DNA of 64,000 nt, from positions 2,418,001 to 2,482,000 of the forward strand of contig NC_063150.1 of assembly GCF_020921035.1 (NCBI RefSeq). Reading direction: 5' to 3'. Under the pieces are notes generated by a model. That model was given only the letters and a program-made list of their open reading frames with translations. It ran no database searches and was not told the origin of the DNA. The translations under genes and the position numbers were made by a program. Shown one piece after another: positions 1-63,030 of this stretch. This stretch comes from Rhodamnia argentea (lineage: Eukaryota; Streptophyta; Magnoliopsida; Myrtales; Myrtaceae). Numbering within the stretch: the first letter of the stretch is position 1; the number at the start of each line of letters is the position of its first letter.

Positions 1-1230
1 CGATGGATTGGATTCTTGGAGATGGATCATTAGGAAGTGAGAGTATCGAATTGCAAGTACTTCCTCTAAATCTTCCATTCATTTCTACTTCCCTAAAGAA
101 GGAAATTTTGACCGGTGAATACTAAGGGTGTGATACCGGGGTTGATTGCGGGGTCTACATAGATCCCACTTGTATTCTTAAGTGAACGATTGTAGTGAAT
201 TATTACCTTTAATGACCATCATTTGCTCCCAAAATCTACTAACCATGATGTTCACAAAATTCTCAACGCAAGTGTACATGTCAAACGAGTAATATAATGA
301 TGAGAAAAGATATCGTCCCCTAGAGATTGATGATTAATAAACTAATTAAATACTAAAAATGGACTAATTCACCACCCACCTGGGTGGCACCGCTGGTTCG
401 CGCACTTTTCCTCTCGCAAAAGGTCGAGTGTTCGAATCCCGGTGGCGTTGCGGGGTGATTTAACCGGTGGCACGTGTGTGGTGGCTAGCACGTGTTGCCC
501 CTAGGGTTTACCCCTCGTTTGCCGGCCGTGCGGGGGTTCCCTGGGTCGCCAAAACAATAAAATGGACTAATTCTAAAATTTATCTAACAAGTAAAAATAA
601 AATTGAGAATAAAATAAAATTAACAATCTTAAAGGTAAAAGTTTGGAACTAGATGCAGTAAATCAATCAAATAAATACGTTAGAGCATCTAATTTCACCA
701 TAACCACTAAACATGAACTTGGGATCTTTACGCAGACAAGAACAATGTTAAACATATGATAGTGGAATTTTCTCTGCTATTTACTATCCTATCTCTAGGT
801 ATAGTAAACCTACTCGGTTTATCAATCTACTATATCTCTATGTGAATTTAAATAAACATAAGTGCATTAAAATTTATGAATATTTTCGATTTATAATGAG
901 TCTTCTAGATCACCTTATCGCCGAAAACTACACAAATAACATGGTATATTTCTATCCACATTATAATTCATGGTTATATATTATAAGAAGCAATTGCATA
1001 GTACCACTTCTCAGTCTCAAACATGCAAATCAGATCACTCAAATAGTGGCCAATCATTTAAAAGCATTAAGCACAATAATATATAACTCACATGAATGAA
1101 ATCACTTGCAAAATATAAACATCAAGAAATTCATATCTTTATGGTCGGGCTATATCGTAGCCCTAACAAAAGAAAATTAGAACATAATAGAAGAAAAAAT
1201 ATAAATATAAATTAAATCAAACATCTTGAA
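1..1230. repeat. Probable LTR-retrotransposon remnant
   Basis: This AT-rich stretch has no credible ORF. Near 270-345 it reads like an LTR or leader segment common in plant Gypsy-type elements: a 'caagtgtacatgtcaaacg' stretch, then 'tatcgtcccc', then 'agattgatgattaataaact'. I recognise only the style of the sequence and see no gag or pol coding here. It is interrupted by the SINE at 371-558. The boundaries are guesses. Confidence 0.3.
371..558 (+). mobile_element. tRNA-derived SINE with 15-bp target-site duplication
   Basis: The 188-bp insert is flanked by a perfect 15-bp direct repeat, aaaatggactaattc, at 356-370 and 559-573. Its 5' part resembles a tRNA gene. An A-box-like segment lies near 381-400 (gggtggcaccgctggttcgc). 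A B-box-like segment, gtgttcgaatcccgg, lies near 428-442. The body then continues as unrelated GC-rich sequence and ends in an A-rich tail (ccaaaacaat). A pol III-type head, an A-rich 3' end and a long target duplication are the hallmarks of a SINE moved by LINE machinery. The flanking repeat is seen directly; the family name is unknown to me. Confidence 0.8.
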
Positions 1231-4882: not shown

Positions 4883-6698
4883 AGTTTGCGAAATTAATAT
4901 ATGCCGTGATCGGCATACTTCTGCTGGGCAACAAGTATGATTTGCTTGCTTAAACATCCACTTATTGTCGGTCACGTCATTTCCGGTACCAAACTCGTAC
5001 ACCCATCTTAGTACACGCAGTATCACGATTACTCGAGTGGGAACTCTCCATGTGTTCAACGGGCAGCCCTCATTTATGGACCAGAACAAAGAACCAAAAT
5101 TCTACGAGTTCCTAACCCTGGAATTCATTATCATAGTACACTGGAAAAATGAATTCACGTGCGTCATTCTCTGCTTAGTCTATCGAAATCCAGCGATCTC
5201 TCCCCAACCTTTGACTCGAGTTCAGGCTCTGGCGCAGACCCAGTTGACAATTCAAACCGTACTCGCAATCTGAACGCGCCCTAGTCTTAGCTGGCTCTTT
5301 CGTTGCACGAAAACTGGTTCCGCAGACAACAAAAAAAAAAAAGCAGATGTCGAACCAGAACGGACAAAGTACAGAGAGAATCTTCTGACGAGTTCGGACC
5401 GTTTCCGGGGCTCTGCGTCACCTCGGAGAAACTGTCTGAAGCTGCTCAGTTTTGACTCTGGGGCTCCAAAGCGAGACGGTGACAGCCGGAGGCTTTGACT
5501 CGTTCCTTGGGTTTTCCACGGGAAGCTATTTCCACGCCATTGTTCGTATGCTTCACCTTACTTTCTTCTTCTGTCGATTTTTGCCATCAACTTGAAGCCC
5601 TCGTCACCATCGCTGAGCTTTTTTGGCTTCTTCAATTTGGTCATATCATGTAAGTAGTTGTGATTCGGCCTTACAGCGGAAGATTTTTCTTCGTGAAGAC
5701 GCGTAGAAGATGATTTGACATCTAATCTAAGAAATCATATACATATTTACCCCGCTGATTCAATGTTATTCGTTTGATTTCTATATATTTTGTGTATCGG
5801 TTGGCTACTAATTCTTTTGTCTAAGTATTATGTATTGAAGTTGTTGTTGTCCTACATCAAATTGTGAATAGGTCTTATATATTCTTAATATTCATGTGGT
5901 TTTCCTCCACCTATAAGTTTAAGCTTTTGAGATGAACTTTCTAATATAGTATCACTTTTTTTTTTTTTGTGAATTGAATTAAGCTTTTAATAGTAGATTG
6001 TATGGCGATTAAAAAGTGAAATGGTAGATGCATTCAATAGTCAAAACATTCCAAAGGGTTGTTTCTATTATTACATGAAATTAATGGCTTGTGGCGAGGG
6101 CATTAGATGTGCTAGTTATGTAAGTTCTCCATAGCCGAAAATAAAGTTTGTCATACTTGTCAAAATCGCCAAAACTTGCACGACGTGAGACGAAATTTAA
6201 TTCTTCAGAAGCAATGGCATTTTTACATTATATCGCGACAATCAACTTCATGAAGAAGTGTAATTCTCGGGTTTTCCTCCTTGAACGTTGTTAATGGAAA
6301 GGTTTCATTTTCGACCAAAAAAAAAACTTCAGGAAGAAGTGAACCATGAGAATCAAGACTATCAATTTCTTGTATCTTTCTCTTAGGAACAAAGAAATCC
6401 GGCAAAATTCCAAAACCATGTTTGAATGATACCTAAGTTCAGTTCAAAGCTCAGTTTGCCTAACCAAATTATAGAAGCTTACATGGGATTGAAGGTGACC
6501 GAATTTGTATTGACAAATCGAGTTTTATCGCCCAAACTGGCATTGAAGAAGCATCGACAGGAACTATCAAAAACGAAAGAAAAGCAAAACTCGCAAACTC
6601 AAAGTGTTACTCAGTCAATTCCTTATCTGAAACGGTCTCCATTGACATCGCCATTCCCATATCTTCTGTACAAATCTATTGAGCTTTGTCCTCCTCCT
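4883..6698. other. Intergenic; includes a UTR-like block without a gene
   Basis: No ORF here is credible. The segment 5300-5640 differs from its surroundings: balanced base composition, short CT-rich runs and a final catgtaagta that could act as a splice donor. That resembles the 5' leader exon of a plant gene on the plus strand. I find no downstream coding exon in the next kilobase, so it may be an orphan leader, a non-coding transcript or chance. From 5700 to 6698 the sequence is AT-rich with nothing recognisable. Confidence 0.35.
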
Positions 6699-8848: not shown

Positions 8849-10825
8849 CTACTTTACTCTCATATCCACACCTTTCAACCCCGCACCCATTTGCTTCACC
8901 TTCCTCATCTCTATTATCTTCCGGTGCGAGTTCGAGTGCAAATTGCTTGAGAAAGTAGGGCTACTCGCCGGCCTATACTCGGGCACGAGCCGGCCTGACT
9001 TGAACCTCACCCCGCAAGCATTGCATAGAGTCTTGGGTCCCTGCGGCCCTGCACGCCATTGCGGTGTCTTCTCCGACCCGCAATGCAAGCACTTCCTCCC
9101 GATCTTGACGCCGCCTTGACCCAACTTAGCCTTCTTGCTCGCCTTCTCTTGGTCCCGGCATGACCTCGCGGCAGAAAAAACAGCGAATTCCCCACACCGG
9201 CGGCTGCGGGCCCGCTTGCTTCGGGCACGGACTGGCACATGGGGGCCGCCGCAACAACTCACAATGGTCGTGCGGCCGCTCCTGTTGCTAGTGCTGTTTG
9301 TGCTGGTCGTTGTGCTGCTGCTGCTGCTGCTGTTTTCGAGCACAGGAATGAGGCCGTCGTCCTTAAAGATGTTCCCCGGTTGGTCAGGGAGAATGTCAAC
9401 GAATGATTCCAAAGACGGGAACGCGTCCTTGTTCAATATCCATTCCAATTCTTCCTCCCCACATTCCTGCCACACAAAAAGATTGTGAGCGCTTAAGACA
9501 AATGATGGCAACCGTGAGATTCCCAAGTTATCCTGCCCATTGTATCAAACTAATAAAACTCTATTTCACAAAGATGATGTGACAATGACTCTGTAACAAT
9601 TCAAGTGTACACGAACATTTGATGATCGTATCGCATCAATAAGCCCAATAGCTTCAGCAACGAAACCGGCTCGTTCCCGATCGGAGTTTGTTGCGCACCT
9701 ATAGACCCGTGCACGATACCTACTTCCGACACACCACATCCTCCCCGTACCTAATCCATCCACCTAACCGGGCTCCACATCCCAATCGCCAAATGCAGCC
9801 TAAGGAATCGCCAGATTGTTATCACCAATGGGTCCGGATTGGAGCGATGACGAGGCAGTCACGACGTATCCCCAGAGTTTGATTTTTTGATACCCTATGA
9901 GACTACTACAATCACCAATGGTGCAATGTCACACCCCATAAGTCAACAAAGTGGGGCTAATGGCGTACCAAACTTTCATGAAAGAGCATCCACTAACGAT
10001 TCAAATTGGTTTCTTTTTGCTTGTGACAAGCAAGGTGGTGTCTTCCACAATGGACATGTGAACCCTAGAATCCCATGTAAAGATTGGAATATCTAACACC
10101 TGTCACCATGAGTGGTTCCAATCTGTCAAATTAAAATGACCCAGTTCATTTTCCATGGCACCTTCCATATATTATTATTATTATTTTTTATATTCTTTTA
10201 ATGAAATTTATGACTTTGGAGCGTTCGGAACGGAAAGTAGAGGTTTGCTCGGGGGTCCATTTATTAGGTGCAACCCTAAAATCATGACCAACAGCTCAGC
10301 ACAATAGCAAGAATACAAAAAAGAAAGAGCCCATCATGGTCAACTTCAACGAAATCCCGAAATTGCCCTCGACGAAAAGGCACGACCAGGTTCCTAAGTG
10401 AGGGGCAGAAGCGTCCTTTCGAGGGCACTAACGCACGAATCATCTCTCCATCCCCTCATTCTAAAATATCGCACGCCAATCAATCGCCGCCAGGCCGGGG
10501 ACCCGGCCGAGTCAACACCGAACTGAGTCAGCGCGCGAGCCGGCCGAGTCGGGACCGAGTCCCGCCGAGGGGACCCCAGAAACCACCGGCAAACGCCCGG
10601 GCCGGCGTTAAAAATCGGAACTTTACGGCCCTCCCTTTCGAGTAAAGACGTGAGGGGGGCGGGACTTACAGGGACAGAAGGGGTCGAATCGTCGAAACTC
10701 GCGGAGTCGGGCAACGAGGCGACGGCGGCCTTGGAGCTGCTCTTGCCGGGGTCGTCTTCCTCGTCGACGACCTCGCCCAAGTCGGTGAAGTCGAGGAGGT
10801 CCTCCATGAAACCCAGAGACTCCAT
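8849..10825 (-). CDS. GATA1: GATA1-like zinc-finger transcription factor
   Basis: Nuclear DNA-binding factor that recognises GATA motifs. Two coding exons on the minus strand, 10825..10670 and 9466..8849, join in phase 0 at a gtaagt donor and a gtgtggcag acceptor to give 257 residues. The protein opens [13 protein letters not shown], close to the start of Arabidopsis GATA1 as I recall it. It continues with an acidic segment, the motif [17 protein letters not shown] at about 56-72 (shared with GATA1), a Ser/Thr run, a basic stretch at about 131-142, and one plant class IV finger at 178-203 (CLHC, 18 residues, CNAC). The conserved tail [16 protein letters not shown] and [13 protein letters not shown] follow. 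The frame stays open upstream of the chosen Met, but that region is a CT/GA-rich leader, so I took the Met matching the family. Its position next to the GT14 gene also matches Arabidopsis. Confidence 0.92.
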
Positions 10826-16223: not shown

Positions 16224-19200
16224 TCAATCGAGCACCACACACTGCTGAGACAGAACAGTACCATTGGACAAGAAGTCGACCAAAAACTTCTCCAGTCTTC
16301 TTGCTCCAGGTCCGGGCCTCAATACATCGGCATCTCCCCAAATTGAGCAGGTGTCGTTTCTAGATTCACCCAAACACCACCCACCAGGCACCACTTTGTT
16401 GGGATAGCGCCCCAAAATCTCTCGGTCAATCCGGTCAAGGACCGATTCATCCGTTGGGAATGAGGAGGCAAAGGCCGCTCCACTCTTTATCATATTGTCA
16501 AAGTCATTCGAATCTAGCTCAGGATATTCCCCCTTGATGGATTTGTTAGAAGTGTATTGTAAGTTAGTATTTGCAACGGTACGATTGAATCGGTGAGAAT
16601 TGCATAGTATGGTGGGGAAGTAGTTTGATAGGGATGAAGGCGTGTTTGACAAATACATGAGGAGAGTCCTGGGGAGGTTATCAGTTCCTAGGATGCAGTG
16701 CTCGATGAAGTTGCGGCTTAAAATTCCAAAGGTTGAACCTGTGAAAGAGAAAAATAGACTGTCGGTTTAATTACGCAATGACAGTTGCAAAAGTAAGTTC
16801 CAAAAAATTGCGACAATTTAACCACTCAGCAGCCCAAAAAAAGAAAAAAGAGCAGCAAGATGATGAAAGAACTCATAAACCACTTTAGCTGAAGAAGAAG
16901 CCGATTTTAACTCACCAATAGGGATAACTAAACATAATTGAAAGCAAAATGAAGCTTTGAAATTTCACTGGTGTGCTGTAAATGGTTGTTATGAGCTATA
17001 TGGGCATTCATATTTTTTGTCCAGGTAACATGAGGAAGGTTCAGTCTCATCTGACCGTAATTATCTATTTTATGCAAAAGAGCAGAATTTGCTAGTGATA
17101 AGCAGAAATGGTATCCAGTATGATTAAGATGACATGCACATATTTAAGTTCATGCAAATGTGAATTTAAAAATACAAATTAAGTAGGGGAGAGAGATAAT
17201 TTATTATGTATTGGAGCTGAAGCTCCAAAATCATACATACAAAGGAGATAGCTCCCAGGTACCCAAAGAAGATAATTTTACAGTAAGTGGTGAGATGCAT
17301 AACGATTCAATTAGGTACATGAGACCGCAAGACCATGAATTTGCTGTACTGAATCGGTTGATAACAGGCAATCTCATCGTCTGTAACAAGTAACAAAAAC
17401 AAACAAGTACAGCAGCTATAGAGTATGGAAAACAAATGTAAGTCGGCAAATTACTCCTATTGGTCCACATACTTCGCTAGTTTCATGTAACAAATCAGTA
17501 AAGTTTTAATTTGTTCCATCAAGTCACTAAACTTTCAGTTCATTTCACTTTATGAGTTCTCTCAATGTTAGTCCAACTTTCTTCATAGGTCAATCAACTT
17601 TAGATCACATGATCATTCTCATTATTTATCCGGTGGCTCGTTGATAGGAATGTCAACTATTTCACTTATTAGAAGCATCGTGCCCTACGTGAAAGAAATC
17701 ACAAAGTTGGATGACTATGACGAAAGTGCAAACTGGAGATAGTTATCCAGTTTACAATTTGTCTTTTCTTAGAACTTTTGGCATCCAAGATGTCAATGTG
17801 ACCATACTTTTGAAGCCTGAGTAGAGTAAAATTTGGTGGTGAAGTTGTAGAACCCGCCAGTCCACAGGTTAATGAGACAATTATATTTTGTTTAGAATAT
17901 ATATTAATGACATAACTTATCCCAGCCAATATGGTGGAGATGCGCAGAACTATGAGGGAGGAGCTCACTCCCTAGGACTCAGTGCAACAAACATTGAGTT
18001 ACAAACAATTTAAATAACAAATGGCCACTTGCACTTACAATAACAGCGTGTGCGACCCACCCTGAGATTGACCCAGTGATAAGGGCATTCCCATGCTTTC
18101 AGCTAAGAAATCGATGGCTGTGGGTTCGCTATGGGGACCTCATATTCAAGTGAGGGGCCATGGTGATGGATTCTTAATAGCCGGCTAATTACGATCGTGC
18201 CCTTACATCATAAAGAAACACAAAAAACAAAAGAAGGTGTGGTTTCAAAGCCATGCCCTCCACAAGCCACTCAAGCTCCATAGAAAACCAAGACCTATCC
18301 AAGCGGATACCGGTTTAGCTGTTTAACCACAACTGAACCCTGATTCATTCCAAGTTTTGATCATGATGGGCCAATAAACAAAGCTAGTTCCTGGTTCAAC
18401 AGGTTGAACTGGCTGTTTTAATCTAGTTTTAAGAAAACTAATGTGACATCTCCACATGATTATGGTCGGATTGGCAACGGTAGCATAATCTTATCAGATG
18501 ATCTACGCACAAAGATAAAAGTTGAATGGGTTCTAAAGTACATATTATCCCAAAAGACCTTAAGTGAAAGATAAAAGCCATCCACTCTCTTGCACATCTT
18601 AGGAACATACAGTGAACACACATTAAGGACAATAAAACATGAAGTGGCAAGGTTATTTCATTAAGGTACAATAAATATGTATTATTGTATCAGCTTCCCA
18701 ATTCTCTCTCTTGAATAATATGCTAGCTCATGGTGCATTATATATGCCTATTCCATGTTGAATTAAACAGAAAATTCCCATGCAAAAGTAAATAAGATTT
18801 TATGTTTAGTGAAAAACAAAATTGTCAAGAACAAATAAGGATGTTTCATGTTTAGCAACTTATATTCAAAGCAGGTATTTTCTAGTCGTCAAATGGGAAC
18901 TACATAATCAGATGGGCAATTTAGAAGAGTCTGATGCAAACTAGTTCTAATGATTGAAATGCTGGCGCTGTTACAGTTAAAATATCAAGGATAAAAGAAA
19001 GAGGAACCTTGGAGAAGGATCACAAAGCATAGGAAATAACTCATGCTATGCAATGCTGTGCAACTTGTGTTTCACTTTTCTTTGATTCAGACTAAAACTA
19101 CCATTAGTTGTTCTAAATCGCACCTCTCATTGAGAAGAACGTCAGTTGCCATCAGTAGAAAAGGCAATGTCAAAACACATGAAACTCTTGAAAAAAAATC

Positions 19201-20534
19201 CAATGTAGCCACAGAAGCATGCAGAATGAAAAGGGCACAAACAATAGAACAGCTATCTGGTTGGGTTCTGTGAATGTCATACTAGAAAACAAGACATAGC
19301 AACATAACAAAGAGACACAGAAAACACTGTCTACCCAGTTAATGTCTGAAAACGAGTAAGCAACATCAGAACTTGGATTTCTGGAATAATCTACAGGAAT
19401 TTATGCAAAAAAGAGTCATTTCCACAAGTCTGAAGACAATTCAGGTTTTCGCAACAAAAGATTATCCCTACTTGACAGTTATGGCATTACTTTTTATGAG
19501 CAATGGAAGTTCGGACCTGAGAAGAGCTGGTATGCATCAGGCAAATCACGCTTCTGACTGGCGTAGAACATGTCAGTCTTCTCCGAAAGATAAAGACCCG
19601 GATCCACAATGATTGGTCTCAACTTCCTGGACCTGAAAACAAAAAACCAGAAAACTTCTAATCACTGGCGAGCTCGAAAGGCTACACATTTTCGCCCAAA
19701 AGACAGAATTCAAGCAATAACCAATGTAAGAAAGTGTCCAGAGAGTGAGCTAATATCATACTCTCTCCATCCAATGTAACTGGTGTGGTTCACAAAATTC
19801 AGATCCCTCGGTAAGTAGGACAGTATGTGAAGCAGATCTGCAACTCCAACAGCAAATATTCGATAACCAATCAACAAGTACTAAAAATCAAAACCCAACA
19901 AAATAAAAACAGGTTAACACTTTGTACCATCTTGAGTAACCAGTGGGTAATCAAGAGCGTTGAGATTAACCAACCAATCCCAATTCGGAGCGAGCCGGAG
20001 CAGTATCGAGGCCCCGTGGAGCGTGGCGGAGATCGGGGACGACCCCTTCGGGTAGGCAAAGTCGGCCCTGCCGAGGACGTCGACGTTCTGGGCGGCGCGG
20101 AAGATGGGACTGGACTGGACGGTGAGGGCGAGCGCGTCGCGGTCGGCCTGGGGTGCGAAGCGGTCGAGGTGGAGGAGGTAGTGGTTCTTAGGGTGGTAGA
20201 CGGCGTGGAGCAGGCGGAGGATCCGGCCCGAGTGACCGGCGGATCCGGAGATGAAGTAGGCGATGGAGGGTGGAGGAGAGTCGTCGGAGGAGGGATCGGT
20301 GGGGAAGACGGTGCGGTGGGACTGAGTGTTGGGGAAGAGAAACGGGTCGGGTCGGGGAGGGTGGGAGGAAAGTTGGGAGGAGGAGGAGGAGGAGGAGGAG
20401 AGAGAGAGGAGGAAGAGGAGAGAGAAGAAGGAGGCGGTGAGGATGATGAAGAGGGTGGTTCTGTTCTGGTGGTCCTTGGCAGTCGCCGCGGCGGCGGTTG
20501 CGGCGGTTGTCGGCGACGGTGGTGAGTTTTGCAT
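16224..20534 (-). CDS. GT14 family beta-glucuronosyltransferase-like (GlcAT14)
   Basis: Likely a type II Golgi membrane glycosyltransferase of CAZy family GT14. Characterised plant GlcAT14 members add glucuronic acid to the beta-1,3/1,6-galactan of arabinogalactan proteins. Four minus-strand exons, 20534..19928, 19837..19762, 19632..19517 and 16738..16224, join with consistent phases (1, 2, 1) into 437 residues. A short cytosolic tail precedes one membrane segment at about residues 27-48 and a Ser-rich stem. The catalytic domain shows IAYFISGSAGHSGRILRLLHA, LLHLDRFAP, WLVNLNALDYPLVTQD, DLNFVNHTSYIGW, KLRPIIVDPGLY, MYLSNTPSSLSNYFPTILCN and VVPGGWCLG. Intron 3 is 2.8 kb and holds a SINE-like insert. 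From memory the Arabidopsis counterpart is At3g24040, next to GATA1 there too. The exact sugar specificity is inferred. Confidence 0.92.
18055..18215 (+). repeat. tRNA-derived SINE-like sequence in GT14 intron 3
   Basis: A head like 'gacccagtgataagggc' stands at the A-box position and a B-box-like gtgggttcgctat lies at 18120-18132, about 50 bases downstream. The 3' portion (gacctcatattcaagtgagg ... ccggctaattacgatcgtg) is unrelated to tRNA. The spacing and the tail suggest a SINE rather than a functional tRNA. No clear target duplication was found. Confidence 0.4.
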
Positions 20535-20683
20535 CGTCAGATCGAAACAACCCGTGATCGTTCGAGTCTTCCGATTTGAAAATGCGTTTTGTGTTCTTAC
20601 AGTAAGAAAACAGATTTTCTTACAAGACAGCAGTTTGTGTCACTCTCTCTCTGCGGAGAGAGAGACAGACAGATCTCTCTTTT

Positions 20684-21974: not shown

Positions 21975-22733
21975 TCAGTACCTCAAATAGACGGCGATCC
22001 TCAACAGCATCTCCGCGCCGTCGATAACGGGTTGGCCCGGCGAGATGAGCGACCTCACTTCCGCGTACCCGCACGCGTTCCTGAACTTCCCGGTCCCTCC
22101 TGTCACGGACAATTTCGAGAGGGTGGATCCAATCTTATACACGCCGTAAAAGTTGAGGCTATCCCCATACTCGCCACCCTCGATCATGGCCGTGAAGGCC
22201 ATCATCTGCGTGGTCCCGTCAGCCGAGCTCGCGACGTACACACCTTGGGCCTTGCCGATGGGCTGCGACCCCAGCTCGGGGCTCAAGGTCAGGATGTCAT
22301 CAATGACGGTGATCGTGCCGAACCCGAGGCCCAGCCCATCGGGTCCCAACTGGGTCTGGACGCCATTAGGGTTGGGGCCATTGATGGCCGTCCCAGCGAA
22401 CAGGGTCCCTGCAAGGCCTGTCCCTAGAGGGATCCCATTGACCCCATTGACTGTAGGGATTGCACCATTTGCATTGGGAATGACCACACCCCCTCTTGGA
22501 GGAAGGAAGCCCACTGGCTTTGCAAAGGGCACTTGGCCACTGTAGATGTCGCCCAGCAGGCCAGTTATGGGCCTAGCTGTGGGACTGCTCCCCCCAAGAA
22601 TGTCATGCATGTACAGTTCAAGGGCCGGCTCGATCCCGCCCTGGCCCGCAGGAGCCGCGGTTGCAGGCGAGCGTGTGACTCCGATCAGCACCATCACGAA
22701 GAGAATCGAGGGTACTGATGATTTGTGGACCAT
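21975..22733 (-). CDS. Dirigent protein, ESB1/DIR-e type
   Basis: Secreted cell-wall protein. Dirigent proteins steer the coupling of monolignol radicals, and the ESB1-like DIR-e group helps place lignin in the Casparian strip of root endodermis. The gene has one exon of 252 residues starting at the ATG of MVHKSS. An upstream in-frame TTG gives five more residues but is unlikely as a start. A signal peptide spans about 1-26 (hydrophobic SILFVMVLIGV). A Gly/Pro/Asn-rich linker (GGVVIPNANGAIPTVNGVNG) precedes the beta-barrel dirigent domain from about residue 125: GTITVIDDILT, GKAQGVYVASSADGT, MMAFTAMIEGGEYGDSLNFY, LSVTGGTGKFRNACGYAEVR. The protein ends LLRIAVYLRY, like family members. From memory the Arabidopsis counterpart is At3g24020, next to ING1 there as well. 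Confidence 0.93.
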   Translation of the reverse strand: MVHKSSVPSILFVMVLIGVTRSPATAAPAGQGGIEPALELYMHDILGGSSPTARPITGLLGDIYSGQVPFAKPVGFLPPRGGVVIPNANGAIPTVNGVNGIPLGTGLAGTLFAGTAINGPNPNGVQTQLGPDGLGLGFGTITVIDDILTLSPELGSQPIGKAQGVYVASSADGTTQMMAFTAMIEGGEYGDSLNFYGVYKIGSTLSKLSVTGGTGKFRNACGYAEVRSLISPGQPVIDGAEMLLRIAVYLRY

Positions 22734-22830
22734 CTTGTATTTGTTCAAAGTGCTCAGAGCTGTGGTTGTTTTGTGCGTTCAATGATGATCTCCAAACTGA
22801 AGGTGTAGGAGATCAGCAGGGACTTTTGGT

Positions 22831-51374: not shown

Positions 51375-52085
51375 GGGGAAAAAATCTAAATAAGGCTATG
51401 AAGTGTTTTTATTTTCTCAAATAAAGGTTAGAAGTGAATCTTGTTTTAAATAAAAGTTTGAACTGCTTTTATTATTTCAAAGAATGATCGGATATTTTTG
51501 TCATTCGTATTTTTTTTATTTCCTCGTACCTCTCCATCGCTGCTGCCTTGCCCATTGGGTCTTGTAGTAGAGGATCACATCTCGACTGCTCTGGGGCATT
51601 TCGTCAAACAGAGAGATGGTGCGTAATTGGAGACTTGAAGGGACGAAAGGCTTGCCTTGCACTGGAAATTTGAGGATTGGTCTGCGATGTTGTGAAATCG
51701 ACATCTTTTGGTAGCTGGCGTGGGCTTTGGGATAGGACGATCTGGGGTTGCTGATGGCCTGTGGCTGGCGAGGGCTCACCGGCAGCTGGCGACCTTGCGG
51801 GCCACAGGCGAGGGCTCGCTTTGCCAGCCGGCCTCACAAGATCTAGGCGAGGCCGGTGAGGGCCTGGGCAAGGTTGCCCGGCTGTCGTCGGCTCCAATAG
51901 GGGGAAAAAAAAAAAGAAATAGCAAAACTGAAAAGAAAAGAAAAAATAAAAAATTCAGAAAATGTAAGGGCACTATCTTTGAAATAATAATAAGGCTATT
52001 TTAGGCCATTCTTTGAAACAAGATCTATTTTAGGCCTTTATTTGAGAAAAGAAAAGCACCTTGGGCCCTTATTTGAAATTTTTCC
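51375..52085. repeat. Inverted-repeat element, family C
   Basis: The left end (ggggaaaaaatctaaataag, then ttattttctcaaataaagg) mirrors the right end (cctttatttgagaaaagaaa, then cccttatttgaaatttttcc) over about 50 bases. The flanks share only tagattc/tagactc, so the target duplication is uncertain. The GC-rich core (51700-51890) contains repeated 'gcgagggctc' units, similar in flavour to the cores of family A copies 3 and 4. Non-coding. Confidence 0.65.
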
Positions 52086-52324
52086 TAGACTCATTTAAGC
52101 AGACGACAAAAGTTGGTCGCATTATTTTTGCAAATCAATTTGACATAATGACCACCGCCTGTGGTGGTCGTATTTCCGACGGCAACTTCCACAAATCATA
52201 GCGAGCATCTCCGATGCCCGACCATGGTGGCTATTGCTATGTAGTTGCCGAAGCAAGGTGAACGGCCACGACGACGATCCGCGGTCAAGGGACGTGCTTT
52301 GTAATATTTTAAATTTACTAAAAT

Positions 52325-52945
52325 GTAGTCCATGAACTATAGCTCAACGTGCAATGTTATCCATAAACATTTAATTTATTCACATTTAGTCCTCGGACCG
52401 TACGTAAATGTCCAATATTGTGCCTCAACTTGATTAATGGGATAATAATATCGAACGTTTTCATACGGTTCGGTGACCAAAGTGAATATATATCAAAAGT
52501 CTATGGATATGTTGAATAAAAAAAAAAATCTAGGGCGATATTATAAATTGAGCTGAAATTTAGGGATTGCATTATAAAAAATTAAAGTTCGCGAACGAAT
52601 CATATTGTAATAGACATGGCCACGGGCTGGTTTGGGCCCGGAACCAACCCGTGGAATAACCGGAACCCGCCTGGCCCCTCACGGCCCTGTTACGGTTTAA
52701 AAAAAATTGGGAACCGGTGGTTCCGAACCAACAAAAAAAAAACAAAAGGGAAAAAGAGGTAACGGCTCTTCCCCCCTTCCCCCTGAATGGCTTAAAATTT
52801 GGCCGAACCAGAACCGGCCATTGAATTGGCCTAGAATCGGGACAGCCCCTTCAAGGGCCAGCTCCGGTTCATGAATCGGAACCGGCGGTTCACGGCCCGT
52901 GGCTATGTCTGTATTGTAAGTTAGACCGTCCATAGTTCATGGACC
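52325..52945. repeat. Inverted-repeat element, family B copy 3, split by a hAT insertion
   Basis: The left end (atgtagtccatgaactatag) mirrors the right end (ccatagttcatggaccatc). The interior units (taaatttagggattgcatta, caaaagtctatggatatg) match copies 1 and 2. The element is interrupted at 52603-52919 by the hAT element and its duplicated target. Removing the insertion and one target copy restores a continuous family B sequence. Confidence 0.7.
52611..52911. mobile_element. hAT-type MITE with perfect 8-bp target duplication
   Basis: The 301-bp element has ends tagacatggccacgggc and gcccgtggctatgtctg, an inverted repeat of about 17 bases with one internal mismatch and a differing outermost base. 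Both flanks are tattgtaa (52603-52610 and 52912-52919), a perfect 8-bp duplication as made by hAT transposases. The interior is rich in ggaaccgg/ccggttcc motifs and has no transposase. It sits inside an older family B element, about 150 bases upstream of the HCAR start codon. Confidence 0.85.
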
Positions 52946-53058: not shown

Positions 53059-56000
53059 ATGATGACGACGACGATATCTCCTGCAATCGCCGCTCTCTCT
53101 TCGTTCTCTCCTTCTCTCTCGGTTCGCTCCTCGTCCTCGCCGTCTTCTTCCTCCTCCTCCTCCGCCAAAGGTAATTTCTTCAACTTGCCATTCTTTTTTA
53201 CTCTGTGAATGCACGGAGACGTCGTCATTCCCTTTTTTTTCTCTTCAGAGACGAGGTCCGGCTCGAAGCCGGTGAAGCTGAGAGCCGACTGGCGGGAGCG
53301 GTCCAGGCCTATCCCTCCGGGAGGCACTTATCCTGCCAAAGACCATTGCAGGTAACCCAGTCGACGTGCTCTTTGGCTTGCTTGCTTTCGAGAGGAACGA
53401 CTCTGGTGAACTTGTGTTTTCGGTTTTTGGTGTTTTCTATTTTGTGGTTTCGACCAGTCGGTGCGGGTTGTGCGACACGTACTACATAGCGCATGTGAAG
53501 AGCGCCTGCGCCTTCCTCGGAGATGGCATGTCTAAGATTGAAGTAAGTTGTTTTGTTTTTTTTTTTTTGTTCGATCATCTTCGTGTTCTCTTGTCCAAAT
53601 GAACAGTGTTGCTGTGCTTTTCAGTATTGTTGGGTCGAGATTGGTGGGCGCTTGTATTCTGTGAAATTTTGATTGATGTGGTTCTCACCTGTTAGGTAGA
53701 TCCTATACATCCATCTCCTTTTGTATCTCCTAAAGTGCTGAGGTTTATTATTTGTTGATCGAATGTAGGAACTCGAGCCTCGTGTCCATGGTAGGGGGAG
53801 AAAGACGGATTCCTTGGACGAGGCATATCTAGGGGTTCACGAGAATCTCTTGTATGCTCGGAAAACTCAGCCTATAGAAGGTAATTCTTTGTGAACTTTA
53901 TAACTGATGTCTGTGGTTTTAGTTCCATATGGGATTTTTCAGTCGAGAACTGACTAGGCACACTGCTGATTTCAAAGGATACCGGATTTGCTGCTGACTG
54001 TTTAGCATACATATTTGGACAATGACAACGATAGAGGTTTAGGCTGACTAAGAATGCTGAACCAGTTGATGAGAGACTGATTGGTTTTCCAAGTCGAACA
54101 TTTTACTTACTGACATAATCCTTGCAACTTTATGATGGTTCTTTCTGATTACTTCCTATTTTAGTTTTTGTCTAATAGGTAATTTTCGTCTTTCCAAGGA
54201 CACATTTCATTAATTTTTTGCTTCTGCGCTATTCCTTTGTCGCTAACAGTGTCTGAGATGGAGGGATTCAAAGTAGAGGAGGGTTAAGTATGGAAGTGAA
54301 GCAGATATTTTTTACTTGCTTAGGTAAGAAAGTGAAAGTGGAGGAGAAAATTACGAGGGAGAATAAATCCTTTTGGCCTGTTACTTTATTCTCTCCTTAA
54401 GTGGAGAAAGTTTAAGCAACTTGACATTTTTTCCCCTGAGAATTTCTGAATTGCCTTGCTAATTTTATGGCAATTCAACGCCAAGGGTGCGTTTGGGAGA
54501 TCCTTTGAAAATTACTTTCTCTCCAAAATTCTTTTACAAAAATGAAACATAACTGAAAAGAAAATGAAAATTTTCTAATCTCTGAGGGTCAACTTTAACA
54601 TATTTGCAAAATTCTATGGGTTGAAGCACAATTTTGAATGCTAGAGGAAAAAGCGTAAGCCTCTGGTTGACTGCTTTTGTTGCTTCAGATCAATGATACT
54701 GTGGTAATGCCTCGATTAATCTCCCTGAGGTTCAGTTTCACCCTTTTGAGTTTGTGTAATAATAGAATTACTTGTATCAAAGATAAGTTATGGATTTTTA
54801 TGTCTGATAGAAACTTCCATGTATTTTCATTCCACCATTAGCAACTTTTTTTTTTTTTTTGGTCCAATCCATTAGCAACTTCTATGCCAGTGAAATATCA
54901 ATCTTTTCTCTTCTCTCAGTTTTATCACTCCTTTCGTGTTCTCTCTCCTTCAACCCACTGTAATGGTTTATTTTTGGAGTTAGGACTTAAGCTGAGATGT
55001 AGTCTCCAAGAAACCTACTCCTGGTTGCCATGACATTTTGTAGACCATACGTTGTGATACTTCTTGCCTTGTAAATCTAAATGCCTTATCAGCAGTGCAA
55101 AACATGGCTGAGTTGAGCATTAGAGCAATCTTTTTGAAAAGGATTATCTGCGATGCATAAGCCATTATAGAATAATTAAAAAACTAATCTTTCTGTGTAC
55201 ATTTTGCTGGGGGTAGGAGCGCAGTGGACTGGGGTTGTGACAACAATAGCCATGGAAATGCTTAAATCAGGCATGGTGGAGGCTGTCATTTGTGTGCAGA
55301 GGTAATATTTCTTCCAATCATTGATAGTTAAGCCTGCTTTTTACGCGGTTAACACTATTTCCATGTTCTCCCTAATGTCAGTGATCCAGATGACAGGCTT
55401 TCTCCAAGGCCTATTTTGGCAAGGTCTGTTTGTAGATTGGTTTTCTGATTCATATCTGATTAGTTGGATTTCCGTTTTCATGCGTTTATAGTGTCGTATG
55501 TGCCTTTTCTTTCTGTCTTTACTTTATTTCTACAGGACGCCTGAAGAAGTTCTAGCTGCCAAAGGTGTTAAACCAACATTGTCTCCTAATCTGAATACTC
55601 TTGCTCTTGTCGAGGTTAGTGTTTTTGCCTTCTAGTGCAAATAAGTTACCGACCATTTACATGCATTCTGTTTTTCCCCCTATTAATTAAAATTGCTGCA
55701 GTTTGCAGAGGAGCATATCATCATTCTTTTGTTCTGTCCATCATGTCAAGCTTGAATAAGCAAGATGCTAATGATGGTGCCTCAATGTATTAGACCTGGA
55801 GCTTGGTTGTTAAAAATATAAGAGTCAGTGAATATTCGATGTTGATGGCACTTTTTGGAAACTCTAACTGGAAGTGAAATTTAGGTCCTGTGGTTGCGTG
55901 GGTAAAGTGCATTTATCAAGACCTTCTTAAGATGGTTAGGTTTTCACTAATCTCGTGGGAAGTGCCTGCATTAAGGTTTTAGAGATCGGTGCATATAGAC

Positions 56001-59000
56001 TGTTATTAATGGAACTGTCAAGAGGCCAATATCTCAGCTGCAATGAAATTCAAAGTGGCCGTAAGCCCCATAACAGCTTTCATTGATGTGGCACCGATAC
56101 TGTAATGGATCATATCTGAATGGATAGAGCCCTCTTCTTGCATCTGCAATCATCGTTTTTTCAATTTCGTAACTTTTAAGATCAAGTTGGCATTGCTTAT
56201 CTTTCCTTTTTTTATTTTTGTTTTCAATAGTCAAGAGAGAGCTGAACACTTTAAACTATAACTCCAGTAGCAGCCAGCAACCTGCCATTCTGGATCTTCA
56301 GTGTTTGAGAATTTCAGCCGAATGTAAGGAGAAATACTCTCTCATGGGGTTAGGTCATGATACCACGTGAATGAGACTGAAATAACTTGACATGCCAGCT
56401 TTTCATTATGTTCGGAGGATATATAGTTATAGTCCATGCAAGCATAAAGTAAAGAAAGAATCTCTTATTGAAGATCAAATACTTCGTTCCGGACATTTTC
56501 AATGATTCTGTAACTGTTAGTTCTTTGTACTGCTGTGAAAGAAGATTAGAATCTACTCAGTTAGAGATAATTATATGTCAACTCGCTGGCTGGTGTATAG
56601 GCACTGGTTATCCTCATTCGCAGGTCACATCTGATTCATCGACTGCTCTGTCTTTGAGATTTACATTCTGTTACTCAATGATTGAGTCAATTATCTGAAA
56701 CAGTTGCATTCTTCAATAGATATTTACTGACAGAATCAGAATTTTCTACATTAAACAGGCTGCTGGTGTGAAGCGTCTCCTTTTTTGTGGTGTGGGTTGT
56801 CAAGTGCAAGGTTTGATTTGTATTATTGCTTGATAGTTGCTATTTTCTGTCTTTAATACATTGTAACTTGTATTATTGTAATGCAGAGTAATTTCTTAAA
56901 CTGCAGCCTTAAGATCTGTGGAGCACCACCTAAACTTGGACAAACTGTATGTACTTGGCACAAACTGTGGTAAGCATTGAAAGTTCTCTTTGTTAGATGC
57001 TTCTGTTGAGGCTCTACTGTGAAGTTTATGCAAACTGAAATGCTGAGATGTACCACCTAGGCTCTAAAGTAAGACGAACTGGGGGTAACGTGGAAACTAT
57101 CAAATTCTTTGTGATATCGCACTGTCCTCCAGTGTTATGTTACTAATTTGGGTGGAATGGGAATTTATAGATGAAGCAGCTCATTCATATGAAAATTTTT
57201 ATTACTTCTTTTACCTGGTCTCCTGTGATGCCCTAGTTTAAGACATTTGCACATATAAAAAGTCGTGGTATTTTTTTTTTAAGTAAAGAAAAGTCATGGT
57301 ATTTTTTTTTTTTTTGGGTAAGTAAAGTCATGGTATTTTATCTCTGCGTTTTATCAAAATGTGTTGGAATTTTTCTACCCATTTTGTGGACATATTGATT
57401 TTGTTAGCACTGACAGACCTGAATGACAGTGGATAATGGAACTCGAGAAGGTCTGGATAAGTTTTTGAAGGCTGCAAGCGACTAACCCGAAACAGTGCTT
57501 CACTACGAGTTTATGCAAGATTACAAGGTTTACATGGAACTGTTCCACCTCTTCCAGTTCCTTCTCTGTATTTTTCTGAATGAATTCGATAATCAGTTAG
57601 TAGCATTGAGGATTTATATAGGTCTTGTCACATTCTCCTCATCAAAATGTACCTGATAGACATCTCGAGATTTCTTGGCTTTATACTTACTTGGCTGCAG
57701 GTGTGGGCCTAATGAACTACTCACAGCTTTATGTCCAAGATAGTCACTTGCATGCTCTTTTCTTGGTTACTTCTCTTCAATTGTGTTACTCAAAGGAACG
57801 ACAGGTTGGATAGCTCAAATACTGGCCCCAAAACAGTTGGTTAAATTACCTGTTTCTAAACTAGTGAAAAAAATTGGCACAGGTTGCTTTTAGATCTCAA
57901 GCCTGGTGCTAACAACCACATGACATTACTTTGGTTCATAGTTTGTTTGTCGCACATAGCTGGATTTTCTGTGGCACTGATATAAAATGCATTTTTCTGA
58001 ATAAAATGTTTCTTAAAGGCCTATGGCATACTGTGTGAGTGTGATCAATGCAGATGTGCTACCAGTTCCCACTTCTTGTAGAGCATCTAGGTATCTGATG
58101 ATTGGTTATTTTCTGGTAGGTCCATTTGAAGCATCTGGATGGTCGTATTGAAGAGGTATTGTGGTCTGTATGCTTCCAGCTTATCCTGATTTTTATGAAT
58201 CAAGCCGCTTCATTCTCTCATTAGTGTTTAATGAACAGGTCCCTTATTTTTGCCTACCAGCAAACGACTTGGTTGATGTTATTGCACCTTCTTGCTATAG
58301 GTAATGATTCTGGTGCTTGATTTTCTCATACTGCACCTTCAAATGTATTCCCATCACACTGTGACATGACTTCAAAATTCCTATCCTACAGCAATTAAGT
58401 CTTGGTTGCGTGGTTGTTTAATTTGTTGTATGTAGCGATTACTTATGCTCTTACAACATGATTTGCGTTTTAACTTTAGATGTTTCTCATGTCTCACAGC
58501 TGCTTTGACTACACAAATGCTTTAGCGGTGAGTTTTCCTCTGCCAACTCTTATGCAAAAAAATGTTATTCGACGCTAATTTTGACTGCTTAAATTATCAT
58601 CCGCATTTCCTTTTCGATAAATTAGATATTCCTATATGCCTAGCCAAACAACCATCAGGCATGAAGTTCTATCAGCTCTAGACGGGACCTGTAGTTTCTA
58701 TCTCATGGAGTCTAGAGCTATTAGCTTAATACGGTCAAACAAACTATGGCTAACAGTTGCTATTTAATGAAGTCAAACTGTAGTGGCATGGTAAGGCTTT
58801 GGTTATACTTGTCAGCCAGTTTGTGCTAGTGATGTGGTGTTTCGTGCGACAGGCATGCGTAATACTCTTCTTTCTGACTTCCAGGACCTTGTGGTTGGTT
58901 ACATGGGTGTGCCTAAATATTCTGGAATCAGCATGACACAACATCCGCAGTATATCACAGTAAGGTGACTGAAGTTACATTGGACTATGATCATTCTACT

Positions 59001-60049
59001 GTGATGTTTTCTCGATGTCTGGCTGACGTATGCAGCATGAAAAATATTGCTAAAGAATTTTTATTCCTTGTGCTCTCTGGAAAAAAATTGCAGAAATGAA
59101 CGTGGAAGGGAAATGCTAGGATTGGTAGAAGATCTTTTAAAGATTACACCTACAACTAGTGGCGTATGCTCTTTGCTTTGTATTCCTTGGATTTTTCACA
59201 AATAGAATAGCAATTTGACTCCAGTTGTTACTACTTTAGGGAATTCGACAACCATTTGTCATGGAGACTGTCAAGGCAGATGACAAAGCAAAGCTGGGTA
59301 TGTTTGCCTCTCTCCCTCTCTCTCTCTCTCATGCACACACACACACACACCCACACATTGATATGTCTTCATCTTCTTCTGGTTCTGTTCCCTCATAAAG
59401 GATGAAGAGATTTCGATATAATGAAAAGGGCGTGCCTTTTCTTTTGTGCACTTTCTAATATTTTTTTATGGCAATGTGTTTGAAATGTCCTTAATTATTT
59501 TTTTGCTGAATACTTTCACTGGCTTGACCATTTAAGCTTATTGATAAGTCTCTTTTCTCTGTCAAGGGATCTCTCTCTCTATCTTCTGAATTTTCGGTCT
59601 TGACGACTAAGTTATATTTTACCTTTCTCAGGGAAAGGGCCTGGTCAACCTGCCCCAAAGTTTGTTGGGAACTTGCTAGCATTCATTCTAAATTTGGTAT
59701 AGAGATCTCTTCTATACTTCACTAGATAGGTGATTAAGCTGAAATAAAGTACTAATCTCATATTTCTGTGCGTCGATCCAGATTGGCCCAAAAGGTTTAG
59801 AATTCGCTCGGTATTCACTTGATTACCATACGATTCGGAACTACTTGCATGTGAATCGCACTTGGGGAAAGCAAAGGTATGCTTTTAACATTCGCAGCCA
59901 ACCTCGCCTGAATATATAAGTTGCATCGTTTTCTAATTCGGTAGCTTTATGACTGTAGAGCTAGTGCTCATATGCCTTCCTACTCGAAAAAGATTGTGGA
60001 CATGTACAACCAGAAAGGGGAAATCGATGAGATGCTTCTGCAGAAGTAA
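53059..60049 (+). CDS. HCAR: 7-hydroxymethyl chlorophyll a reductase, with in-frame stop in exon 10
   Basis: Chloroplast iron-sulfur flavoprotein of the FrhB (F420 hydrogenase beta) family that reduces 7-hydroxymethyl chlorophyll a to chlorophyll a. Nineteen exons: 53059..53170, 53249..53351, 53458..53542, 53769..53880, 55217..55301, 55382..55423, 55536..55614, 56759..56810, 56907..56969, 57430..57527, 58120..58155, 58239..58300, 58500..58527, 58885..58964, 59094..59163, 59240..59297, 59632..59696, 59782..59876, 59959..60049. All phases agree over 471 sense codons, except for TAA at codon 263 (57483-57485), where relatives have Glu (KEPETV becomes D-stop-PETV). Seen: a Ser-rich transit peptide, cluster cysteines in CSRCGLCDTYYIAHVKSAC, CGVGCQVQALR, IAPSCYSCFDYTNALADL, and GPKGLEFARYSLDYHTIRNY. 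If the stop is real, only a 262-residue product lacking the C-terminal half is made. An in-frame ATG at 52939 would add 40 residues but lies partly in repeat DNA. Confidence 0.9.
59308..59352. repeat. (TC)n(CA)n microsatellite in HCAR intron 16
   Basis: Adjacent tctctctc (59308-59330) and acacacac (59333-59352) runs. Intronic, 10 bases past the exon 16 donor, and likely to vary in length between individuals. Confidence 0.85.
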
Positions 60050-61791
60050 TCCTCAAGAGCAACAGCTATGGAGGCAGATTTGCAACTCATGGCCGTCAAA
60101 TTTTTCTGCATCAAGTCCATTTTCTACATTTCAGAGTTGAGAGAGAGAACATGTCCTGCACTTTTAAGGAGAGGGTTGATCATGTATATGGTACCATGTA
60201 TCACTAGTACTAGATTGCTTGAGCATTAAAAAAGCGAGGTGGTTTGATTATCTGGTTATGAGAAAATGAAAAGTACTCTCCAATTTGCCATCTGCATTAA
60301 TTGTGCTTGCGCTTGAGTTTTACTTACTCTTAAAAAAAAAACAATAAAAATCATTTGTCCTGCTAAATTTTTAAATTTGAAAATAGTTTATGAAAATAAT
60401 TTATCTTGGAATCCATAACTCATCCTTTTTATTCAAGTGTCTACTTCCCAAAAGGAACTTCGCTTTATGCATGCGATTACGTGTGGCATAGATCTGCCGT
60501 TAGGTGTACATTCCAATTGGTAACACTTCTAAATTATTTCTTCTTCGTACCCCAAACTTTGTTTCTTTTAATTTAAATTTAAGAAATAGAGAAGGGTAAC
60601 ATATTTTGAAGTAATTTTCCGTAATTGTTCCGAAACGTTTATTTGTTCTGTTTCGACTTTTATCTTGCATTCACTTAATTTGAAATTAAGTTGAAAAGAG
60701 AAGGATTATCTATTGTAAAAATTTAGTTCCCATGCTATCGCTCGTAGCTCATCAAAGCCCCGCATGTGTAAGTGGATTTCTATACCGGCAGTGAATCTAA
60801 TAGAAATCTAAAAGAAAAATAAAATTTATGCTATTTCATTTCGCGAATATGTATGTACATAACTGTTGCATTTAATTTGAAACTATATCAAAGTGATGTG
60901 AAGGATTGTTTATTTGGTTTAGTGTATAAATTTCAGTTAGTATTATCAAAGTGATGTGAAGGATTGTTTATTTGGTTTAGTGTATAAATGTCGGTTAGTA
61001 TTAACTGATTTATACAGTACAAAAGAAAAATCAACTTATAATTGTGTTCATTCAATGTTCACATTCTACTACAAACAATGAGCAGAGTTCGTATATTTTT
61101 TGAAATTTGAATTTCATAAGTTATCAAACTGTTCAAAATGTGCTCGGCACGTTGAAACTTTTATTTCCCATTTGCGACTTCTGCAACGCGACGAATTTTC
61201 CACGTGGCACCTATTCGACAAATAATTTTTTACTCATCCATTTATCACTTCCCAACATTTATCTCCACTGGATTTATAATTTAGGATTTGGAGAAACAGT
61301 GGAAAAAGATGAAAAGATAATATTTCCAATTAATGAACGTACATTTTCCTTTGCATATATTATTTCCACGTGGCATATGCTCGACTAAAATTTTTGAAAA
61401 TGGAAATATCTCGCATTGCATTAATAATTTTTCATACTGTGAAATAATTTACCACCGACATGTTTCCTTTTCCCCCTTCTTGTTTCCTATGTTTTCTTTC
61501 AAAGACTCCAAACAAGGAAACAACTCTTGGAGATCAAGTTTCCTATTAATCTCCAAGGCCAAAATTCGCAATCTGAAAGAGCCAATTCCAAATTAGGAAA
61601 TAAAAATCCAAGTTAAAACAGATATTATTCATTTGAATCATCAAAGAAACCTGATTAAGAAAAAGAAATCAACCCGTGTACGCATCTTTTTAATCCCAAC
61701 TCTACAAAAAGGAACAGCATCGTTGGCGCCCTCTTCATTCGTCGTCATCCCTCTCCCTGCATCTGATCGTCGTTGTGTTGTTCCACCGACG
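60050..61791. promoter_or_regulatory. HCAR 3' flank and promoter region of the DUF295 gene
   Basis: 60050-60300 is likely HCAR 3' UTR. The remainder is AT-rich. Two ttccacgtggca boxes (near 61198 and 61364) lie about 590 and 425 bases upstream of the DUF295 start codon. Both contain the G-box core CACGTG, so bZIP or bHLH control is possible. Open frames here (61107-61596) look like chance readings. Confidence 0.35.
60886..61001. repeat. 58-bp tandem duplication
   Basis: Two adjacent copies (60886-60943 and 60944-61001) starting tatcaaagtgatgtgaagg and ending gttagtat. They differ only in ttcag versus gtcgg near the end. The duplication lies in AT-rich DNA between HCAR and the DUF295 gene. 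Confidence 0.85.
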
Positions 61792-63030
61792 ATGGCCGTC
61801 CGTGCTCGCGACTCTCTCCCTCCGGGCCCTCCTCCTTCTCCTCCTCCTCGTCAATCTCCATTGTTGATGCTCCCTCTCGAGGAAGACGAGGATGGCCATG
61901 GCTGTCGCTTCTTCAGCATCAAGGACAAGACTGCCCTCGCCCTCCGCGGCTTCCCGGAGGTCTTTTCCGAGAGCCGCTGCGTCGGGTCTTCTCACGGGTG
62001 GCTCGTGCTCTTGGACAAGGGCTCCGAGCCTTATCTCCTCGACCCGCTTCTTGGCGGCCGCCGGGTACTCCGCCTCCCTCCCGTCGAGACGTTCCCCTGT
62101 GTGCTTCGAGTGTTTCGCAGTGATGACGATGGCTGTGGTTTGGCCGCGCTTTACGAGACGGTCCATCTTGGTTGTTGGCGGAACACGACCCTGCTTTCTC
62201 TCCAGACGCTGAGCGACTATATCGTCTCGAAGGCCGTGTTATCGGCAAACCCTAATGATGTTGATAAGGGCAAGAGTTGCTGGGTCGTTGTGATCTTCGG
62301 CAGCGAGTCGAAGCTTGCTTTCTGCGGCTGCAAAGACTTTGGGGGAGGCGGCGCATGGACCGAGCTAACTGGCATCCATGCTCCTTACAGCGACGTCATA
62401 TTCTACGACGGCACGCTCTTTGCCCTCTGCAACAACGGATTCGTCGAAGCGTGGGACTTCAATAGGGACAGCCCCATCAAAATCATGGAGATCAAGTCCT
62501 CCTTCCCGCCGAAATCGGCTGAGGCGGCGCACGCTCTCAGGAAGGTTTGTTTCACGAACTCATACTTAGTTGAGGCGGGAGGCGAGATTTTGCTTCTGGT
62601 GAGGTTTGCAGGGTATTTCGTGAACGGGGACGGTGTCCCAGTCGAAGAAGATTATCTCTTGACCGAGGAGGACACACACCCATTGGTCTGTCCCTACAGA
62701 ACCTTGTATTTTCATGTTTACATGCTGGACATGAACACCGAGGAGTGGATGGGGTTGGACTCGATCGGCCACCGTGCCGTGTTCGTGGGCGGAAGCCAAT
62801 CCGCGTCGGTGTCGGCCCGGGACTTCCCCGAGCTCGAGGCAAACTCAGTGTACTTCACGGACGATTATTGGGAACCGGCGGAGCGCGACGACTTGTACGG
62901 CGGGCACGACATGGGGGTGTACAACTTGCAGAGCGGGAAGGTGAAGGAGATTTGCGAACTGGGCTCGGACAAGATCGAGCCGCCTCCGTTTTGGGTATTC
63001 CCATCTGATTATCGTTCCAAGCGAGGATGA
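61792..63030 (+). CDS. DUF295 (KIB1-4 beta-propeller) protein without F-box
   Basis: One exon of 412 residues, from the first in-frame ATG (MAVRARDSLPPG). The frame is open further upstream but only from TTG. After a Pro-rich start, the sequence matches the plant DUF295 repertoire: SESRCVGSSHGWLVLLDK and YLLDPLLGGRRVLRLPPVE near 60-105, then DVIFYDGTLFALCNNGFVEA about 200-220. Further on are YMLDMNTEEWMGLDSIGHRA and FPELEANSVYFTDDYW, then DMGVYNLQSGKVKEI near the C-terminus. Many family members carry an N-terminal F-box and serve as SCF ubiquitin-ligase adaptors; here the N-terminus has no F-box-like Leu-Pro segment. The function is not known. The family is expanded and lineage-specific in many plants. 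The coding GC content is high compared with the AT-rich flanks. Confidence 0.85.
   Translation: MAVRARDSLPPGPPPSPPPRQSPLLMLPLEEDEDGHGCRFFSIKDKTALALRGFPEVFSESRCVGSSHGWLVLLDKGSEPYLLDPLLGGRRVLRLPPVETFPCVLRVFRSDDDGCGLAALYETVHLGCWRNTTLLSLQTLSDYIVSKAVLSANPNDVDKGKSCWVVVIFGSESKLAFCGCKDFGGGGAWTELTGIHAPYSDVIFYDGTLFALCNNGFVEAWDFNRDSPIKIMEIKSSFPPKSAEAAHALRKVCFTNSYLVEAGGEILLLVRFAGYFVNGDGVPVEEDYLLTEEDTHPLVCPYRTLYFHVYMLDMNTEEWMGLDSIGHRAVFVGGSQSASVSARDFPELEANSVYFTDDYWEPAERDDLYGGHDMGVYNLQSGKVKEICELGSDKIEPPPFWVFPSDYRSKRG

Follow-up and report, generated by a model that had tools for sequence, protein, structure and literature searches.

The stretch of DNA analysed here (the window, 64,000 nucleotides of Rhodamnia argentea) contains a gene for HCAR, to date the sole enzyme known to complete the conversion of chlorophyll b to chlorophyll a, and the reading frame of this gene meets a TAA codon in its tenth exon. 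The question is whether the sequenced plant carries a genuine nonsense allele of HCAR, or whether the stop is an error of the assembly, is spliced out of the transcript, or marks a loss that is fixed in the species.

The HCAR gene and its in-frame stop codon

The exon borders were placed by eye and verified with a script and by protein match. In the resulting model all 18 introns are GT-AG and the coding sequence is a multiple of three.

53059-60049 (+): HCAR gene from start codon to terminal stop; 19 exons, 1416-nt CDS, FrhB_FdhB_N and FrhB_FdhB_C domains above the Pfam cut-offs
53059-53170, 53249-53351, 53458-53542, 53769-53880, 55217-55301, 55382-55423, 55536-55614 (+): HCAR exons 1-7
56759-56810, 56907-56969, 57430-57527, 58120-58155, 58239-58300, 58500-58527 (+): HCAR exons 8-13
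58885-58964, 59094-59163, 59240-59297, 59632-59696, 59782-59876, 59959-60049 (+): HCAR exons 14-19
57430-57527 (+): HCAR exon 10, which contains the stop; 98 nt, starting in phase 1, with AG/GT flanks and a gapless match to 5dqr_A
57483-57485 (+): in-frame TAA in exon 10, HCAR codon 263, preceded by 262 residues

Translation through the TAA gives a read-through protein that aligns with HCAR of Arabidopsis (5dqr_A) over 429 residues on both sides of the stop, with 0 gaps, 83% identity and an E-value of 3.4e-257, whereas the second-best match reaches E 4.8e-15; the protein is nearer the solved HCAR than the F420 hydrogenase/dehydrogenase beta subunits. Pfam places both FrhB/FdhB domains on the read-through protein, PF04422 at 87.5 bits (cut-off 22) and PF04432 at 86.4 bits (cut-off 23.3), the latter covering residues 211-356 and being interrupted by the stop. 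Ten cysteine columns are common to all four aligned HCAR sequences, and two of them (308 and 311) lie downstream of the stop. The cofactors of HCAR are given in the passages available from PMC6006212 as two 4Fe-4S clusters and FAD, and the KxxxxxGxG pattern, designated the FAD motif of HCAR in a figure legend of PMC8465020, is found upstream of the stop at residues 211-219 and recurs at 385. The gapless match to 5dqr_A and the Pfam domains thus uphold the identification of the gene as HCAR in the first-pass annotation.

As the read-through protein matches 5dqr_A on both sides of the stop, the reading frame is not a product of chance, and a wrong frame or a wrong exon model is ruled out. The TAA at codon 263 is the sole in-frame stop ahead of the terminal stop, and no further lesion was seen in the 19-exon model with respect to in-frame stops, splice dinucleotides and frame. 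The gene model and the 5dqr_A alignment therefore agree with the earlier description of an isolated nonsense codon at these positions, following 262 residues, within an otherwise intact gene, in which frame and splice sites are intact in all nine later exons and the IAPSCYSCFDY motif is retained.

It had further been proposed that a single G-to-T change turned GAA into TAA. The column of the stop is occupied by E in Arabidopsis, S in the cyanobacterial HCAR-like protein L018 and N in its counterpart L019, and several sense codons are one step away from TAA. Given the E of Arabidopsis, an ancestral GAA remains the simplest route, but since the column varies among the three homologues other routes are possible.

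Several further features were noted in the window. In the stretch 3′ of HCAR (60886-61003) a 58-base unit is duplicated in tandem, in two copies with 96% matches, and an uninterrupted 477-codon open frame with a KIB1-4 beta-propeller (PF03478) domain follows at 61597-63030 (+). Open frames on the minus strand comprise one with a GATA zinc finger (8849-9544), two that hold pieces of Core-2/I-branching (PF02485) sequence (16224-16766 and 19914-20639) and one for a dirigent-like protein (21975-22778).

Copy number and constraint downstream of the stop

The assembly (346,658,060 bases in 74 contigs) was searched for a second HCAR at the protein and DNA levels, the searches scoring the best candidates only within the assembled sequence. 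The protein search gave 17 matches up to E 10, of which 16 lie within this HCAR gene and the seventeenth (C7, E 1.07) is not HCAR-like and, judged by eye, belongs to a leucine-rich repeat gene. The DNA search with the whole HCAR gene gave 15 matches, consisting of the gene itself, three neighbouring pieces on C5 and a further 11 short matches, every one of them at query positions 6309-6360, a CT/CA-rich stretch in the intron after exon 16. The pieces on C5 belong to a relic of the gene.

G000:C5:22339597-22342145 (-): decayed HCAR duplicate of intron 4 and exon 5 (loci L002-L004, L016 and L017), 79-86% identity

Exon 5 of this relic carries a one-base frame break. When two adjoining C5 stretches (18 kb) were compared more closely, two further, smaller pieces of intron 4 came to light, along with a few short matches to the sequence upstream of HCAR (window 51388-52527), and no credible match to other HCAR exons was found in these 18 kb (next best tblastn E 4.5). 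The relic is ruled out as a working HCAR, its only exon match being the broken exon 5 and its other gene matches falling in intron 4. A second, intact HCAR, the possibility of which the first-pass annotation had raised, was not found in the 346.7 Mb assembly apart from this decayed fragment, and the protein and DNA searches rule out a retained intact duplicate in the assembled sequence. A Pfam search of the whole assembly returned zero matches, missing the HCAR gene itself, and is uninformative about copies because the HCAR domain is split across short exons. In this assembly, HCAR is thus a single-copy gene that bears a disabling lesion with no intact copy found elsewhere, which is the make-up of a unitary pseudogene or nonsense allele. 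HCAR is present in one copy in most plants and in two in a few, as stated in the text available from PMC8465020.

Staygreen-family (PF12638) matches were found at G000:C2:31859561-31860664 (+) and G000:C3:31450972-31451976 (-), in three stretches each. The stops reported in one of the C3 stretches fall, on visual inspection, within the intron that precedes the acceptor, which is the sole check on the error rate of the assembly. With the family present at both places and these stops intronic, there is no obvious loss of the Staygreen step in chlorophyll breakdown.

Residues equal to those of Arabidopsis HCAR number 186 of 220 before the stop and 172 of 208 after it (Fisher p 0.70), while the conserved columns, defined as those identical in Arabidopsis and the two cyanobacterial homologues L018 and L019, are kept by the window protein at 123/129 before and 103/106 after. 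The alignment thus gives no sign of relaxed constraint downstream of the stop, and the equal conservation on its two sides leaves four possibilities for the lesion: a recent origin, polymorphism, rescue, or an error of the assembly. That the lesion looks recent, as first proposed, agrees with the undiminished conservation downstream, but such conservation would be equally expected from an assembly error or from a rescued transcript.

A rough calculation at assumed rates (indels at 0.1 per substitution, 85% of them frame-breaking, and every splice-dinucleotide change disabling) places the 95% upper limit on the time since constraint was lost, for all lesion types, at 0.012 neutral substitutions per site, equal to 2.4 to 12 million years at assumed rates of 5e-9 to 1e-9. 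With nonsense changes only, the same rough limit is 0.052 neutral substitutions per site (10.5 to 52 million years). These estimates fit a young allele, an error or a rescue, and argue against an old loss.

Nonsense allele, assembly error, splice rescue or fixed loss

We favour, with moderate confidence, a recent nonsense allele at the only HCAR locus of the sequenced plant, in a gene that would be single-copy and conditionally dispensable. The main rival of this reading is a consensus or assembly error at the TAA in a plant whose HCAR is intact, to which we give a minor but appreciable chance. An error would suit a gene that otherwise looks normally constrained: the 19-exon model shows neither a further stop in frame nor a damaged splice dinucleotide, and divergence does not rise past the stop (Fisher p 0.70). 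Against an error, the assembly is contiguous (74 contigs for 346.7 Mb) and single-base substitution errors outside homopolymers are uncommon in contiguous assemblies. We infer that the TAA is real in the plant. Alternatively, in-frame splicing may remove the stop and yield a shortened protein, whether through the acceptor at 57494-57495, an exitron from 57451, a skip of exons 8-10 or a similar event. The first-pass annotation had correctly argued that skipping exon 10 fails to restore the frame; the 98-nt loss breaks it, and this skip is ruled out as a rescue. Several other in-frame choices nevertheless drop the stop, exon skips having been enumerated up to four exons.

57494-57495 (+): candidate alternative acceptor AG, exon start 57496; would trim 66 nt (22 codons) from the exon, in frame and including the stop, 449 residues
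57451-57519 (+): candidate in-frame exitron of 69 nt, with GT at 57451 and AG ending at 57519; stop removed, 448 residues
57451-57495 (+): candidate in-frame exitron of 45 nt; stop removed, 456 residues
57520 (+): exon start of a candidate alternative acceptor; in frame, stop removed, 441 residues
Exons 8-10 (+): candidate skip; in frame, stop removed, 400 residues
Exons 8-11 (+): candidate skip of 249 nt; in frame
57471 and 57474 (+): candidate GC donors; in frame, with poor scores of -3.14 and -1.04

Splice scores were taken from a small weight matrix built from the 18 introns of this HCAR gene, with real acceptors left out in turn. The candidate acceptor with exon start 57496 scores 2.45 in a range of -2.06 to 7.43 for real acceptors. 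This score says little about its use: it does not speak against use, because the real exon-10 acceptor scores lower (1.24, leave-one-out), nor for it, because 28% of 364 decoy AGs in HCAR score as high. The candidate donor at 57451 is within the range of real donors and scores 7.33 versus 4.85 for the donor of exon 10; the exitrons of 45 or 69 nt that it would open are, however, shorter than the shortest HCAR intron (76 nt). A CTAAC motif overlaps the TAA just upstream of the AG at 57494-57495, yet it lies about 10 nt away, which is close for a branch point. Loss of the 66 nt would remove residues 246-267, and as 13 of these 22 columns are invariant among the four aligned sequences the product is probably inactive. 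Since the escapes within exon 10 would either cost conserved residues or call for an unusually short intron, rescue of HCAR by splicing is rated unlikely on these sequence grounds, and to the making of a shortened protein we allow a slim chance.

The stop could also be fixed, in a species that lives without HCAR because another enzyme or route takes over, a reading we regard as very improbable. Within it, a lineage that has naturally lost HCAR would still live and degreen because a further 7-hydroxymethyl chlorophyll a reductase, as yet undescribed, or some bypass does the work, for which the prospect is equally faint. Compatible with a fixed loss are the failure to find a second HCAR copy in the assembly and the statement, in the passages available from PMC8394709, that HCAR is unessential for chlorophyll b degradation in Arabidopsis, where another enzyme is left open. 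Against it stands the fact that no second lesion has accumulated, although a young fixation may be compatible with the rough upper limits of 0.012 to 0.052 neutral substitutions per site at the assumed rates.

Predicted consequences and comparison with known HCAR systems

On the favoured reading of a recent nonsense allele, HCAR translation would stop after 262 residues. Everything from residue 263 onward would be missing, and with it a large part of the C-terminal FrhB/FdhB domain as well as cysteines 308 and 311 of the shared SCYSC. Many exon junctions downstream of a stop lead nonsense-mediated decay to be expected, and since nine junctions follow this one, the last 536 nt downstream, the HCAR transcript would be a likely target. 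The allele would be unable to turn 7-hydroxymethyl chlorophyll a into chlorophyll a. It may be present in the heterozygous state or vary among members of the species, and would persist because HCAR can be dispensed with under some conditions. The sequenced allele thus probably yields no working HCAR, provided that the stop is neither a sequencing error nor removed by splicing.

The first-pass annotation had likewise expected a failure to reduce 7-hydroxymethyl chlorophyll a, and the predicted truncation agrees with this, but the phenotype is expected to be milder, as judged from Arabidopsis knockouts (PMC6006212, PMC8394709). In the portions available of these and related papers, Arabidopsis hcar knockouts are reported to be ordinary in standard growth and to stay green in darkness (PMC6006212). 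When they senesce naturally they yellow as the wild type does, and effects are seen chiefly when whole plants are kept in the dark (PMC8394709). Leaves of hcar plants accumulate 7-hydroxymethyl chlorophyll a without cell death before dark treatment (PMC7762049), and rice hcar mutants are reported to stay green in both natural senescence and dark settings (PMC8465020). The published knockouts being viable, a natural HCAR null is expected to be viable, with a mild or conditional phenotype.

If real, the allele would be a naturally occurring null in a chlorophyll-cycle gene with a single copy. It could test the dispensability of HCAR outside the studied mutants and the existence of another 7-hydroxymethyl chlorophyll a reductase, a question left open in the text available from PMC8394709, and could also be relevant as an allele for stay-green or senescence traits. 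Should the stop prove to be an assembly error, it would caution against inferring gene loss from one assembly.

Both the gene and events of this kind are known, and among the literature matches listed no title or abstract opening describes an HCAR nonsense allele or a natural HCAR null. Like HCAR of Arabidopsis thaliana (At1g04620; PDB 5dqr), the window protein has the N-terminal CxxCxxC, the SCYSC cysteines and KxxxxxGxG at 211-219, whereas the window gene reads TAA at the position of the Arabidopsis E, and the preceding residue is D in the window and K in Arabidopsis. The cyanobacterial L018 and L019 are 63% and 62% identical to the window protein and share SCYSCFDY and LHYEFMQDY with it; unlike the window gene, they have S or N at the stop column and a frame that is open through it. 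As in the Arabidopsis and rice hcar knockouts, described in the passages available from PMC6006212, PMC8465020 and PMC8394709, a loss of 7-hydroxymethyl chlorophyll a reduction is predicted and stay-green in the dark would be expected, but whereas those knockouts are studied mutants, the stop in the window is known from the assembly alone.
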